Part shown: in pieces, positions 1,602 to 6,979 of the stretch
Layout of the letters: the number at the start of each line of letters is the position of its first letter
Position numbering within the stretch: position 1 is the first letter of the stretch
Notes under the pieces: generated by a model
What the model saw: only the letters and a program-made list of their open reading frames with translations
The model's database searches: none
What the model was told of the DNA's origin: nothing
IMG/VR virus record: IMGVR_UViG_3300045015_000004
Location: 1 to 23,501 of that record
Origin: a virus
Length of the DNA stretch: 23,501 nucleotides
Strand: one strand, 5' to 3'
Position numbers and translations under genes: made by a program

Positions 1602-2441
1602 TCAGCCTTTCGGTAACTCTATCTTCTTGCCACCATTGGCTAGCCAGCGCTGATGCCACTCAGCGATGCCGTCCCCTTTCCATGTGTGAACGTCGTACTT
1701 CCACACGAACTCAGGGTCCTTGTCGGTCCTGAACATTCTCGACTTCATTGGACGGAACAACCGACAGTTCCGTACCTGGATTCGTCTCTCTGTGCCTGTG
1801 TCTTCAACGTGCCACACTTCGGATAGGTTGATGGGCACTTGCTCAACGAGACTTGAGCCTAGCAAGATTGAGATGAACAGCGGGTTGCCTTCCTTGTCTC
1901 GTTCGAGCCTGTCCTCGTGGCAGATGAAGATGATGTGCTTGTTGGCTCGTCGCGTCTCGTGATTCAGGTTGCGGACCATCAAGCTCATCCACGTGTACTT
2001 CATCCCGTAGCCAGCGAATCCAGGGTCTTCGAGCGTAGAGCTACGTCCCTTGGCTGTTCCCTGTGCAACAGTGACACCATGCTTCAGTGCAGTCTCTCCG
2101 AATGTGGTGAGGCTGTCAACCACGATGGTATCGTACTGTGCCCACTTGCTTGTGATCTCGGGCGGCACCCTCTCCTTGAACTTGGTGACGATGTTCTCGT
2201 GTTCGCCACTTAGATCGAGCACGGTGATATCGTGATGGACTTCGTTCCTGCCGATGAGTGAGTTAGGTCCATCGGGATCGAAGTTGATCCATAGCTTCTT
2301 GCCTGGAGCAGTTGAAGCCAGAGTTGTCTTGAAGCTGCCAGCGCGTCCCCACAATATCAAGCTGATGCGCTTCAGTGCATCATCTGGTTGGCCTGACTTG
2401 ACATTACCCAGAGTGATGGTGGTCTCTTCTTCAGCAGCCAT
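1602..2441 (-). CDS. Sak4-like RecA-fold ATPase, single-strand annealing/recombination (279 aa)
   Basis: Phage Sak4-type (AAA_24/RecA-core) proteins bind single-stranded DNA and promote strand annealing during phage replication and recombination. Walker A is clear at residues 32-40 (GRAGSFKTT), and Walker B at 103-110 (YDTIVVDS) ends in the expected Asp. The next strand (residues 168-176) is hydrophobic and ends in ICHEDR, as in RecA-core sensors. The length is close to that of phage homologues. I chose the ATG giving MAAEEETT because GGAGG lies 9 nt upstream; a start six codons earlier lacks one. It overlaps the preceding 56-aa gene and follows the Cas4-like nuclease, a typical phage nuclease-annealase pairing. 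Confidence 0.85.
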   Translation of the reverse strand: MAAEEETTITLGNVKSGQPDDALKRISLILWGRAGSFKTTLASTAPGKKLWINFDPDGPNSLIGRNEVHHDITVLDLSGEHENIVTKFKERVPPEITSKWAQYDTIVVDSLTTFGETALKHGVTVAQGTAKGRSSTLEDPGFAGYGMKYTWMSLMVRNLNHETRRANKHIIFICHEDRLERDKEGNPLFISILLGSSLVEQVPINLSEVWHVEDTGTERRIQVRNCRLFRPMKSRMFRTDKDPEFVWKYDVHTWKGDGIAEWHQRWLANGGKKIELPKG

Positions 2442-2601
2442 GCTTGCGTTCCTCCACAATGACGAGTGCTGACATTACTTCTTCTGCGTACGCTAAGGTC
2501 TTTGTAATACAGACTACCTCGTACGAGTCATGGAACTTCCTAGTGACCATGTACAGGTCATCTCTGAACTTCAGTACAGCGAATATGATTCTCTCAGTCA
2601 T
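2431..2601 (-). CDS. Small overlapping protein between nuclease and recombinase (56 aa)
   Basis: A complete frame of 56 codons begins with ATG, with GGAG 8 nt upstream, and ends at TGA. It overlaps the end of the nuclease gene by 8 nt and the start of the recombinase gene by 11 nt. The protein begins MTERIIFAVLKFRDDLYMV and ends VIVEERKHGC. It looks like a compact alpha/beta fold, with no known motif. The good ribosome site, the stop/start overlaps on both sides and the otherwise uncovered gap of about 150 bp make it likely real. An accessory to the recombination pair is a guess from position only. Confidence 0.7.
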   Translation of the reverse strand: MTERIIFAVLKFRDDLYMVTRKFHDSYEVVCITKTLAYAEEVMSALVIVEERKHGC

Positions 2602-3679
2602 CGACAGGACTCCACTTGTCGTGTTCCATCTCTTCGATGATACGTGCTCGCTCGTCTATGTCCGAGCCACAGTAGGCGAGCAATGAGCATGGACGGAAGT
2701 AGCGGTTGCAACTGTGTGTGAATCGAGGCGCGTGAGTCACATCATTCACATGCTGCTCGAACAGTTCTACGGTGTGGACGAACCACACTGCCCAGTCGAT
2801 GTACTGGAACTGCGAGCGGTTGACGTCCTCGAAGCGTATCCCCTCGAACAGTGTCTTGCCGATAGGGATACGCATACCGACTACTCTGGCGTCGTCGCAC
2901 GATAGGTTGGTGAACGTGGCTCCAGCTAGACAGTAGCCTGTAATCTGGTGACTGAGTTGCCACTGGGCGAGCCAAGCGTCATCGAGCCTAGCACCTGTCT
3001 TGTTCTCATCGACCATCAAGCGATTGCCATTGAACACGAGGCCATCAAGCTTGCCCTGCAACCTGCGTCGCATGGTGTTGGGCTTGCTGTCTTCTTCGTA
3101 CTCGATAGTCACCATGATATCGAAGGCGATCTCGATGCCAACATCGGTGTTGACATCGCTCGGATCACGAATCCAGATTGGATACCTGTCTGGTTGGATG
3201 CGGTCGATGTACGCGATTAGCGCTTCTGCGACGTTCGTGACTGTTCGCTTCTTGTCGCTGTCGCTGTCGTAGAATCCGCACGAGTACAAGGCGTCCAACG
3301 CGAAGTTGATGATGTTCGTTCGCTCCAGTTGGTTCGCGTCGAGCGTCTTCATCATGCTGGCGAACCGTTCCTCACCGAACAGGCGCACACCATGACGCTT
3401 CGCTGCCTCGATCATAACGTCGCCGTGCTTCGGTGCGTCGTAGTGGAGCAGTTGGAACAGTCGGATGGCAGCGAATGACTCGTGAGCAGCTTCGCCAGCC
3501 TCCAACGCCATAGCCCGACCAGCATCAGGCATGACCTTGTGCTTGCCGTAGCGAATCAGGCCCCACGTTGGGCAGGTGTTGACTGCTGACAATGCTGTGT
3601 GGTCGTACGCCGGGACGTCCTTCTCGTCAGCAGCAGTTAGCGAAGTCTTCAGAGAGATGATCTTAATCTGCTTCTTCAC
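2594..3679 (-). CDS. Cas4/RecB-like PD-(D/E)XK nuclease with Fe-S-type cysteines (361 aa)
   Basis: The family (PDDEXK_1, Cas4/AddB-like) degrades DNA ends to expose single strands. Visible motifs are an N-terminal Cys36 in NTCPTWG, His66 in AGEAAHESF, Asp212 in GKLDGLV, Glu225-x-Lys227 in VDENKTG, and a Q-x3-Y at 245-249 (QITGY). Three C-terminal cysteines lie at 324, 331 and 337. Cys36 plus these three match the four-cysteine iron-sulfur cluster of Cas4/AddB nucleases. The start is GTG, chosen because GGGAGG lies about 8 nt upstream inside the preceding gene, which it overlaps by 17 nt. It stands directly before the Sak4-like gene, so end resection followed by annealing is the natural model. 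It is not part of a CRISPR locus here. Confidence 0.85.
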   Translation of the reverse strand: MKKQIKIISLKTSLTAADEKDVPAYDHTALSAVNTCPTWGLIRYGKHKVMPDAGRAMALEAGEAAHESFAAIRLFQLLHYDAPKHGDVMIEAAKRHGVRLFGEERFASMMKTLDANQLERTNIINFALDALYSCGFYDSDSDKKRTVTNVAEALIAYIDRIQPDRYPIWIRDPSDVNTDVGIEIAFDIMVTIEYEEDSKPNTMRRRLQGKLDGLVFNGNRLMVDENKTGARLDDAWLAQWQLSHQITGYCLAGATFTNLSCDDARVVGMRIPIGKTLFEGIRFEDVNRSQFQYIDWAVWFVHTVELFEQHVNDVTHAPRFTHSCNRYFRPCSLLAYCGSDIDERARIIEEMEHDKWSPVDD

Positions 3680-4241: not shown

Positions 4242-5435
4242 TTAGAAGTCTTTTCCAATCAACCGTGAGCCGAAGTTCAGGAGCTTGTCGAACAACAGGT
4301 TCTGCATCTGTCTTGAGCAGTCGGGCACACTATAGCGAAGGTGGATGAACTCCTCAACTAGCGCATGGACGAGCGTGCGCATACCTCTCTCGAAGCAATC
4401 GTAGCCCACATATATCGTCTCTCTGGCTGCCACGCCGAGCACGTCCTTGCCTAGCTTCTTCGCAATGTATATCTCGTAGGATCCAACATCGAATCCCATC
4501 TCTTTCGCGTACCCGATGGCGCGCTGAAGCATCTGCCTGTCCGCCTCACTCAACTCTGCTGGCTCAGGACTGATCGTCTTGTTCCTTCTCTTACGATAGA
4601 CGGTCAACGCTGTCCTGTTCACATCGAAGTGACGAACCTCAGACAGTTCCTCGATGCACTTGAGGAATGTCTCGGAGGCATTGTTGTGAACTGACTGCCA
4701 ATCGAAGTCCAGCGATCCCTCATGGAACTCAGCAGCGTTCGCGGTGAGTATCTTGCTTATCAGTTCCTTGTCATTGCTGCTGGCGATCAGGCTCGCTAGG
4801 TGCAGGCTGTTCAGGTAGACGCTATCGATGGTACGGTCCTCAGTCAGCTCACAGTCGAACTTGATGTTGTACTTGTACAGAGTCTGGCGATCACTCCTAC
4901 CAGCGCGGATGCCTCTGTAGTAGAAATGGCCTCGATCAGAGCCCTCGTGAATCTCGACCTCACTCGATGCGAGAATCGGCTTCGTCTCCAGAAAGATTTG
5001 GTTGGCTGTGCGATGAGTGCCGTCGATCTCTGGGCCGGAGACAACGATCAATGTCGTATCGCCATTGAACGGCACGAAGTCTTGATTCGCTTCGTACACC
5101 TTGCCGCCTTCGTCTATTACGTTGCAGCGTAGCTCTCTGTAGGCTTGCCACACTTCCCAATTCTTGCCTAGGTCGAGAGTGTAGCTCAGTCGCTCCTCAT
5201 TGACGTAGACGAACTCGAACTGCTGACCACGGAACATGGTCGATTCCTCTCTGAACTTGTACGTCATGCCACCTGAGTAGATCGTTATCGAGTGGCCTGT
5301 CCTCAGCAACACAGCGATTGCGTACTTCAATCCCGTTCCGAAGTAGCCGATGGGATTGTTATTCTCCTTGGCGTTGACTCCGAAGGCTTTGAAGGCGATT
5401 GGATCGATCACGCCATCGTTCTGGAATACGATCAT
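4242..5435 (-). CDS. GHKL (HSP90-like) ATPase-type protein with C-terminal metalloprotease-like motif (397 aa)
   Basis: The N-terminus contains a GHKL-type G box, IGYFGTGLK (residues 29-37), preceded by FGVNAKENNNP, as in HSP90/MutL/histidine kinase folds. The gene starts at or just before the first glycine motif (MIVFQNDGVID), with GGAG 9 nt upstream of the ATG and an in-frame stop two codons before it, so the usual N-box helix with its Asn is not encoded. Residues 350-380 carry HALVEEFIHLRYSVPD, in which His357, Glu361-Glu362 and His365 resemble a zincin helix, but the canonical first His of HExxH is Glu. The middle region is unassigned. The role is unknown; similar 'HSP90-like ATPase' proteins occur in other phages to my recollection. 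Confidence 0.7.
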   Translation of the reverse strand: MIVFQNDGVIDPIAFKAFGVNAKENNNPIGYFGTGLKYAIAVLLRTGHSITIYSGGMTYKFREESTMFRGQQFEFVYVNEERLSYTLDLGKNWEVWQAYRELRCNVIDEGGKVYEANQDFVPFNGDTTLIVVSGPEIDGTHRTANQIFLETKPILASSEVEIHEGSDRGHFYYRGIRAGRSDRQTLYKYNIKFDCELTEDRTIDSVYLNSLHLASLIASSNDKELISKILTANAAEFHEGSLDFDWQSVHNNASETFLKCIEELSEVRHFDVNRTALTVYRKRRNKTISPEPAELSEADRQMLQRAIGYAKEMGFDVGSYEIYIAKKLGKDVLGVAARETIYVGYDCFERGMRTLVHALVEEFIHLRYSVPDCSRQMQNLLFDKLLNFGSRLIGKDF

Positions 5436-5473
5436 GTTCTATCGCTCCACATGCTTTTCAGATTTGACACATT

Positions 5474-5502: not shown

Positions 5503-5955
5503 CTACTCGACAGCAGGGGCGACTATGTAATACAGATTACCCTTGCGTTCCTTCGTAGCCCGTTCGGTCGCCGTGTCGATTATCTCTTTCGAGACACCGA
5601 GACTAGCGAGGGCGACGATGAAGTCCTTCATCTTGACTTCTGGCGATGACTTGTTACGCTTCTTCTGAAAGCACAACAGTCCATCATCCTCAACCACGAC
5701 GGTCGTGTCAGGTGGAGGATCGATGTTGTCGGTTACTTCATCGATGGCTTTCTTCGCAGCATCCAGCCGCTTGTCAGCGAGCGATGATAGAGCCTGTGAC
5801 AGTAGCAACTCTGCCATTGCGTTGCGAACGTCATGTGCGTGAGAGGCTTTCTCGTTGGACATTCCAGCCGTGTCGGGGTCCGGCAGATTCAGCTTCAACG
5901 CACGGAACGCCTTCTCAGTTACTGACTGCTCCTTCATGATCTCAAGATGGTTCAT
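5503..5955 (-). CDS. Unrecognised early protein (150 aa)
   Basis: ATG with GGGAG 7 nt upstream, overlapping the end of the DUF932-like gene by 14 nt. The N-terminal half (residues 1-75) is helical and Ala/Leu-rich (MAELLLSQALSSLADKRLDAA). A proline-rich acidic linker follows (NIDPPPDTTVVVEDDG). The C-terminal part (about 105-150) again looks helical and ends YYIVAPAVE. There are no catalytic motifs, membrane segments or cysteine clusters. It lies between the DUF932-like and GHKL-like genes, and the function is unknown. Confidence 0.75.
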   Translation of the reverse strand: MNHLEIMKEQSVTEKAFRALKLNLPDPDTAGMSNEKASHAHDVRNAMAELLLSQALSSLADKRLDAAKKAIDEVTDNIDPPPDTTVVVEDDGLLCFQKKRNKSSPEVKMKDFIVALASLGVSKEIIDTATERATKERKGNLYYIVAPAVE

Positions 5956-6979
5956 TTCGTTTCTCCCATTGGACTAGTTGCAGTTCCTCTCTCGGGAACT
6001 CGTGTACAGTGCCATCTTCGGAGACGCATTGGACTACGATGGTGGGGTTGTCTTTGTCAACGAAGACTTTGTAGTACTCGCCATCTTTAGCCTTCACCCA
6101 ATCGCCTTCATCGAATGGATGCTTGCTCTGCGTCAGGTCGCCTTTCAATAGCTCTTGGAACTTACTTGACTCAGTCCACTGCATGATCTCTTCTTCACGC
6201 TTCATCAACGTGGCAGCAGCGTTGTCTGTCTTGTTGATGTCACGCACGGCGAAGTCGCCTTCGTCATGTGAAGCATAGAACGTGGCTGCTGAGTACATGG
6301 CCCACACGTTCGTACCGTGAGAGTCTGCCCACTTGTGGTAGGCATCCATCAACTGCTGGATGCGACGGGCTGATATGTTGGGGATGAGTCTGTAGAATTG
6401 ATCGACTGTGAAATCTGACACAGCCATCTTCGACCACGCAGACCATCTTTCTGTCTGCTCGTAGTATGTCTTGTAGGCTCTGTTGACGATCTCACCAATT
6501 CTGGGCAGCGCAAGATTCGATGTATGCTTGACTACAGCTACATCGTATGATCCTGTAACCACTCCATTTGAACAGAAGAAGTCGATTGCTCCAGAATAAA
6601 TCTTGATGCTGGATGCACCGTCATACCCGTTGCTAACGACAACGCGAAATGCAACTGACGATCTGCGGCCAACAGCTTTCTTAGTTCCGGGGAACACGTA
6701 ATCTCTGAAGCACTGAGCTCCATAATATGCTGCTCTGTCATTAACTTGCATCCCCTGGATGATGTCGGCGGGTAGATGTCTCTTTAGCTCATCCTCGATG
6801 ACGTTGCACAAGTCTTGCATGTGCACAACTTTGTATCGTCTGCCGACAACACCGAGAACACGCTGCTCGTTATCCTCATCGAACCGTATGATTGCTTTGT
6901 GTGTGCTGACAGGTTGTAGACCTTGGCTGTCTTTGATGTACAAGCCGCGCTCGTACACCGGAAACATGATGTCCGTCAT
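5942..6979 (-). CDS. DUF932-like phage/plasmid protein (345 aa)
   Basis: The pattern of an N-terminal LGVVGRRYKVVHMQDLCNVI block (about residues 42-61), then VSNGYDGASSIKIYSGAIDF and CSNGVV, matches the DUF932 family widely found in phages and plasmids. The molecular function of that family is not established. Residues 165-275 are mostly helical. The last 55 residues (FDEGDWVKAKDGEYYKVFV onward) look like a separate small beta-barrel (SH3-like) domain. The start is the ATG with AAGGG upstream, in a leader behind a promoter candidate at 7019-7047, so this gene probably heads a sub-operon. The family assignment is from memory of sequence pattern. Confidence 0.7.
   Translation of the reverse strand: MTDIMFPVYERGLYIKDSQGLQPVSTHKAIIRFDEDNEQRVLGVVGRRYKVVHMQDLCNVIEDELKRHLPADIIQGMQVNDRAAYYGAQCFRDYVFPGTKKAVGRRSSVAFRVVVSNGYDGASSIKIYSGAIDFFCSNGVVTGSYDVAVVKHTSNLALPRIGEIVNRAYKTYYEQTERWSAWSKMAVSDFTVDQFYRLIPNISARRIQQLMDAYHKWADSHGTNVWAMYSAATFYASHDEGDFAVRDINKTDNAAATLMKREEEIMQWTESSKFQELLKGDLTQSKHPFDEGDWVKAKDGEYYKVFVDKDNPTIVVQCVSEDGTVHEFPREELQLVQWEKRNEPS

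Follow-up and report, generated by a model that had tools for sequence, protein, structure and literature searches.

A phage protein family with a probable segment-swapped GHKL domain joined to an EExxH minigluzincin-like domain

The window analyzed in this study is the whole 23,501-nucleotide stretch of IMG/VR record IMGVR_UViG_3300045015_000004. Its minus strand carries an early region, and the genes for terminase, portal, and major head protein lie opposite it on the plus strand. In this early region the gene described here is found together with genes for a Sak4-like annealing protein, a PD-(D/E)XK protein, a DUF932 protein, and an HNH endonuclease (the last by Pfam and PHROG; Table 1). 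The gene is a minus-strand open reading frame running from 5435 to 4242 and encodes 397 residues (P0001); an earlier note on this DNA had its position and length right and left out the strand. The gene is real, as judged from its full-length homologs in many phages (mostly 34–40% identity) and from the codon-position bias of a genuine gene (GC3 0.70 versus GC2 0.36). An in-frame TAG lies two codons 5′ of the ATG, as the note had also seen. In nearly all homologs translation can start at the same site, a few residues ahead of the G1 strand. The start codon is thus not an annotation error, and the absence of an N-box from the N-terminus is a true family trait.

Table 1. Coordinates of the gene, its domains and motifs, and neighboring genes in the window
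Feature	Position	Strand	Details
Whole gene	4242..5435	-	397 aa; PHROG 8203 match, E 1.1e-91
Block B of GHKL domain	5196..5435	-	Residues 1-80: G1 strand, lid, G2 helix, three strands; second in canonical relatives
G1 strand and loop	5403..5432	-	Residues 2-11, IVFQNDGVID; N6 79/81, G8 76/81
Lid and G2 motif	5325..5381	-	Residues 19-37; G19, K23, G30, F32, G33, T34, G35, K37 81/81
Block A	5091..5192	-	Residues 82-115: strand, N-box helix, strand; first in canonical relatives
N-box	5103..5159	-	Residues 93-111 (WEVWQAYRELRCNVIDEGG); R100, E101, N105, D108, E109 81/81
Last strand of domain	5037..5057	-	Residues 127-133; conserved T128, 79/81
Block C	4707..4943	-	Residues 165-243: Hsp90-middle/S5-like second domain; YRG and LTEDRT motifs; E199, R201 81/81
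Minigluzincin-like domain	4257..4547	-	Residues 297-393; predicted secondary structure; selecase 1.00, abylysin 0.80
EExxH	4341..4355	-	Residues 361-365; E361 78/81, E362 78/81, H365 76/81
Sak4-like annealing protein	1605-2459	-	Same early region as GHKL gene
PD-(D/E)XK protein	2597-3679	-	Pfam, below cut-off; same early region
DUF932 protein	5945-6979	-	Pfam; same early region

The family itself is already catalogued, as PHROG 8203. Its 73 phage records come chiefly from YuA/M6-like Pseudomonas phages (in YuA itself the protein is gp29), and further members belong to phages of Bordetella, Stenotrophomonas, Bradyrhizobium, Synechococcus, Dinoroseobacter, and Brevundimonas. Relatives are encoded in 327 IMG/VR stretches and in 22 loci of bacterial genome assemblies; a search for plasmid homologs returned none. 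Neither the window protein nor any of 81 family members has a significant Pfam match, and no PDB chain gave a significant sequence match. Existing annotations in some records of relatives read HATPase, ATP-binding protein, or metallopeptidase. A second contig, IMGVR_UViG_3300045005_000005 (L002/L030), encodes a protein identical to that of the window. In Pseudomonas phage EKU1 the homolog is found in four pieces over three annotated genes (PV844354.1, 32952-33959), suggesting that this copy is broken or mis-sequenced.

Hsp90, gyrase, MutL, and histidine kinases all belong to the GHKL proteins, for which the order N-box, G1, G2 is treated as a fixed signature. Conservation of these motifs was counted in an alignment of 81 family sequences, in which G19, K23, G30, F32, G33, T34, G35, K37, R45, G90, W93, R100, E101, N105, D108, E109, E199, and R201 are invariant. 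The lid and the GxxGxG pattern of G2 are intact, with the lid Lys and the G2 glycines invariant, and include the IGYFGTGLK reported at residues 29–37 in the earlier note. Residues 93–111 (WEVWQAYRELRCNVIDEGG) resemble the N-box of the PHROG 6077 proteins (W...AxRELxQNAxD) and that of GyrB, but are located after G1 and G2. This segment carries the catalytic Glu (E101), the Mg-binding Asn (N105), and the following Asp (D108) in every sequence. The note had stated that the N-box helix is not encoded and that the fold is truncated; the helix is present, at residues 95–108 downstream of G1/G2, and the N-box has been relocated rather than lost. Since all three residues are invariant, motif loss lends no support to its further suggestion of nucleotide binding without hydrolysis.

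The G1 motif departs from the DxGxG pattern. N6 occupies the position of the adenine-contacting Asp of other GHKL proteins and is Asn in 79 of the 81 sequences and Thr in the other two. In Hsp90, the mutant that serves as the standard for defective nucleotide binding has the Asp-to-Asn change (D79N/D93N), and the one for defective hydrolysis has a Glu-to-Ala change (E33A/E47A) (PMC10148809). Because the G1 Asn equals the first of these, nucleotide binding is not assured. Judged from its motifs, the family retains the hydrolysis machinery while base recognition appears altered, which is the opposite of what the note had proposed; this clade may tolerate Asn, or it may recognize a different base.

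PHROG 6077, which ranks second among the PHROG matches of the window protein, comprises GHKL proteins of Vibrio phages, Vequintavirinae, and PaMx11-like phages, in which the order is N-box, G1, G2, followed by LYVGGLFV...YSYDF...LDRDR. One tested member matches Pfam HATPase_c_3 above cut-off; the matches of others to HATPase models are weak. When all six frames of the whole record were searched with the PHROG 6077 HMM, profile positions 42–105 were matched at 5256-5444 in one frame of the minus strand. The next match in the same frame was to positions 5–38 (5091-5192; E 1.2e-4), and the third to positions 178–256 (4707-4943). In YuA, AH02, and Sonora the N-box match to this HMM lies downstream of the G1/G2 match, as it does in the remaining records in which both segments were found; PAKlein3 and A7_1 are collinear over the full profile. 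A second HMM, built from 12 canonical PHROG 6077 proteins, placed the N-box after G1/G2 in 92 of 95 relatives and before them in none, with no separate N-box match in three. The canonical proteins are collinear with it in 12/12 cases, which, as they are its own input, shows profile coherence only. When the residues from 63 on were shuffled as controls, an N-box match arose in 0/1900.

Profile–profile comparison gave the same arrangement. Residues 1–60 aligned to canonical 44–104 (E 1e-12), residues 86–125 to canonical 15–32 (E 1.9e-7; probability 93.7 for block A), and residues 150–215 to canonical 162–223 (E 4.7e-6), and residues 1–215 compared in one piece yielded two non-collinear alignments. 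Column shuffles peaked at 20.0 and 20.5 bits, versus 42.0 and 74.5 bits for the real profiles. In some relatives (L094, L036, and L108) block C starts near profile 127–141, the last strand of the domain, right after the N-box; in L108 it starts near 127. Homology to PHROG 6077-like proteins is thus found over all three blocks. As the order G1, G2, N-box of the window protein and of 92/95 relatives is non-canonical, we claim homology to GHKL proteins, and a likely GHKL-like working, for a rearranged variant rather than plain membership. The reading that we favor, and regard as likely, is a segment-swapped (circular-permutation-like) Bergerat/GHKL domain, in which A-B-C has become B-A-C, followed by Hsp90/S5-like and minigluzincin-like domains. 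In canonical relatives, C comprises the last strand of the ATPase domain together with the second domain. Three points are established at the level of the sequences: the block order, the invariance of N-box and G2, and the replacement of Asp in G1.

Two other placements of the N-box were discarded. To look for a separate upstream gene encoding it, the entire record was searched in all six frames, and the single N-box match lay within the open reading frame. The C-terminal EExxH helix as a relocated N-box was dropped, the relatives showing W..xxxREL..N..DE. In the open-access PMC literature, no report of a permuted Bergerat/GHKL protein was found.

Despite the swap, PHROG 6077 proteins and the window protein share the blocks W..xxxAxREL..N..D, GxSTK...IGxFGxGLK...LxRxG, and (Y/L)xxGxxV...Y...(E/R)DR. 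The G1 Asp is also lost in PHROG 6077 (to Asn, Ser, or Thr) and therefore does not separate the two clades. What distinguishes PHROG 6077 is the canonical A-B-C order, in 12/12, and a lack of the EExxH C-terminal domain. A canonical-order relative is encoded by PAKlein3 (L136, 2968-4056), and the PaMx11-like Pseudomonas phages have the ordinary form while YuA-like phages have the swapped one. Among viral contigs, one canonical-order locus was found. Distant members of the window family occur in uncultured phages of 462 kb and 595 kb (L025, L026), and the order in L026 is also swapped. Divergent swapped members (L124–L129) lie in genome contigs of bacterial assemblies, several of them from Bacteroidota, and have phage-type genes (exonuclease, helicase, or methyltransferase) as neighbors; these loci are probably prophages.

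The AlphaFold2 model of the full protein (pLDDT 93.6, pTM 0.78) comprises a β-strand at residues 2–7, a helix at 34–45, strands at 49–54, 57–68, 71–78, and 81–86, a helix at 95–108, and strands at 112–115 and 127–133. Residues 1–140 modeled alone gave pLDDT 90.5 and pTM 0.86, the block of lowest confidence (21–30) being the lid. The elements expected of the Bergerat α/β sandwich predicted here are present in a confident model. Foldseek searches of the PDB with the full model highlight Hsp90 first (E 2.5e-3, probability 0.57, TM 0.24), with TopoVI-B and MutL lower. In BFVD, canonical phage GHKL proteins are matched with probability 1.00 and the RIIA protein of KVP40 with 0.80. Kinship to GHKL proteins, as proposed in the earlier note, is accordingly supported by profile–profile, HMM, and Foldseek matches. 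With the isolated domain, no GHKL protein was among the best 50 PDB matches of Foldseek. As Foldseek aligns sequentially, this is as expected for a swap, but it means that the three-dimensional claim draws on sequence homology to canonical relatives, not on superposition.

Hsp90/sacsin-type ATPases resemble the window protein in the lid and G2 pattern, the last-strand Thr, and a second-domain Arg near the nucleotide, and the NCBIfam sacsin model is matched weakly in relatives. They differ in having the N-box first, Asp in G1, and no zincin-like domain. In the MORC family, fGxSxK...IGxfGxGLK is in register with the lid and G2 of MORC2 (E 0.24, a weak match), but the order is canonical and the architecture is otherwise unrelated.

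T4-type RIIA is likewise a phage early GHKL protein with a variable C-terminus. RIIA orthologs combine a GHKL domain with a variable C-terminal domain and act in counter-defence (PMC7824862). The window protein could be of this kind, with a common GHKL core and a C-terminus that varies with the target, a reading that is compatible with the segment swap and that we consider possible, if on balance doubtful. The structural match to KVP40 RIIA, the annotation of the canonical relative in PAKlein3 as an RIIA lysis inhibitor, and the variation of C-termini within PHROG 8203 itself are consistent with it. Against this, the PAKlein3 label is automatic, the window protein is about half the length of RIIA, and scans of Pfam, PHROGs, and NCBIfam gave no sequence match to the RIIA family. 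The RIIA order is not known to be swapped.

The C-terminal domain has the predicted fold of a minigluzincin catalytic half. Foldseek matched the full model to selecase (probability 1.00, TM by target 0.52) and abylysin (0.80), matches that are assigned to the C-terminus on their size and secondary structure. An hhalign match of residues 280–397 to the canonical family (E near 1e-21 over 7–28 columns) was taken for a ragged gap-column artefact and disregarded. The helix HALVEEFIHLR (357–367) had been described in the earlier note as degenerate and zincin-like, Glu occupying the place of the first metal His, and this holds family-wide. Its reading as HxxxEExxH survives in part: EExxH is kept, but H357 is conserved in only 2/81, so that the pattern fails at its first His. 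Beyond EExxH, D372 (76/81), Ser/Thr374, R375, and Q378 (77/81) are also conserved. The domain is missing from the proteins of the Dinoroseobacter and Brevundimonas phages R26L and MaInes and from loci L120–L123, indicating that this module can be separated from the GHKL core. A swapped core without the EExxH domain is seen at L023 (4001-5077), L024 (3992-5059), and L120–L123.

Wss1 and Spartan have been described as minigluzincins with a role in DNA repair (PMC4559962), and a working minigluzincin metalloprotease under ATPase control, cleaving host or phage proteins as such enzymes do, is an alternative that we consider unlikely. The predicted fold is like that of selecase and abylysin, the catalytic Glu and second His (Glu-x-x-His) are retained as in those proteins, and one record (phage AN14) is annotated as a metallopeptidase. 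In contrast to selecase and abylysin, the first metal His is replaced by Glu family-wide (the first and the second residue of EExxH are each Glu in 78/81), no member has HExxH in its place, and several members lack the domain altogether. A minigluzincin-like predicted fold with Glu for the first metal His points instead to an altered metal site or a pseudoprotease.

Another argument would be that the REL..N..DE helix resembles an N-box only by chance or convergence, and that the N-terminal half has another fold whose one feature in common with GHKL proteins is a glycine-rich loop, as the isolated domain finds no GHKL protein among its best 50 PDB matches. This is very unlikely, given a match of approximately 34 positions to the canonical N-box segment, on which 92/95 relatives agree and which shuffled sequences never produce, and the matches of full-length models to canonical phage GHKL proteins with probability 1.00. 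That the protein is a truncated GHKL protein without an N-box, binding nucleotide without hydrolyzing it, is scarcely credible: nothing N-box-like precedes G1, where the open reading frame starts with an in-frame stop just 5′, but HMM, profile–profile comparison, and invariance all place the N-box downstream, E101 and N105 included, so that truncation is refuted by the sequences themselves.

Among 53 groups of relatives, neighbors include recombination exonucleases, YqaJ, ERF proteins, and a host-nuclease inhibitor, the names being taken from record annotations, one PHROG match, and reading of the sequences. As a bare tally, this gives only a hint of a link to recombination genes. No partner gene is common to the window and the YuA group, and none is constant across the 53 groups. 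The window protein gave no match in a defence-system search, in which YuA gp29 matched DrmB (E 0.0049).

With the segment-swapped domain as the preferred reading, a working model can be proposed. Block A is predicted to pack on block B still, with E101, N105, and D108 lining one pocket together with the glycines of G1 and G2, and nucleotide and Mg would bind in that pocket. The second domain may supply R201 or E199 to the site and transmit closure, as in Hsp90 and MutL, and the C-terminal minigluzincin-like domain, with its altered metal site or as a pseudoprotease, may serve as an effector or substrate-binding arm. The likeliest setting would be early infection, near phage recombination genes, where the protein could be a nucleotide-gated clamp or chaperone acting on phage DNA-processing or host proteins. 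Its role as an early-region nucleotide-driven switch near recombination genes is inferred from gene neighborhood only.

What is new here is the probable segment-swapped Bergerat domain and not the family, which is already catalogued. The wider proposal, which we put forward tentatively and rate at somewhat under even, is that a natural permutation of the Bergerat fold has become fixed in a large phage family, keeping N-box and G2, carrying a G1 Asn that may reflect a changed nucleotide, and coupled to an EExxH zincin fold, yielding a nucleotide-driven switch with a new specificity and a new effector arm. The family is present in more than 300 viral contigs and in 73 phage genomes, those of the Pseudomonas YuA/M6 group among them, and profile annotation overlooks it, 81 members having no significant Pfam match. 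The consistent change of the G1 Asp to Asn makes nucleotide specificity a concrete question. A natural rearrangement of this kind reveals which of the fold's connections can be dispensed with, and makes it possible to test directly the communication among N-box, lid, and second domain.
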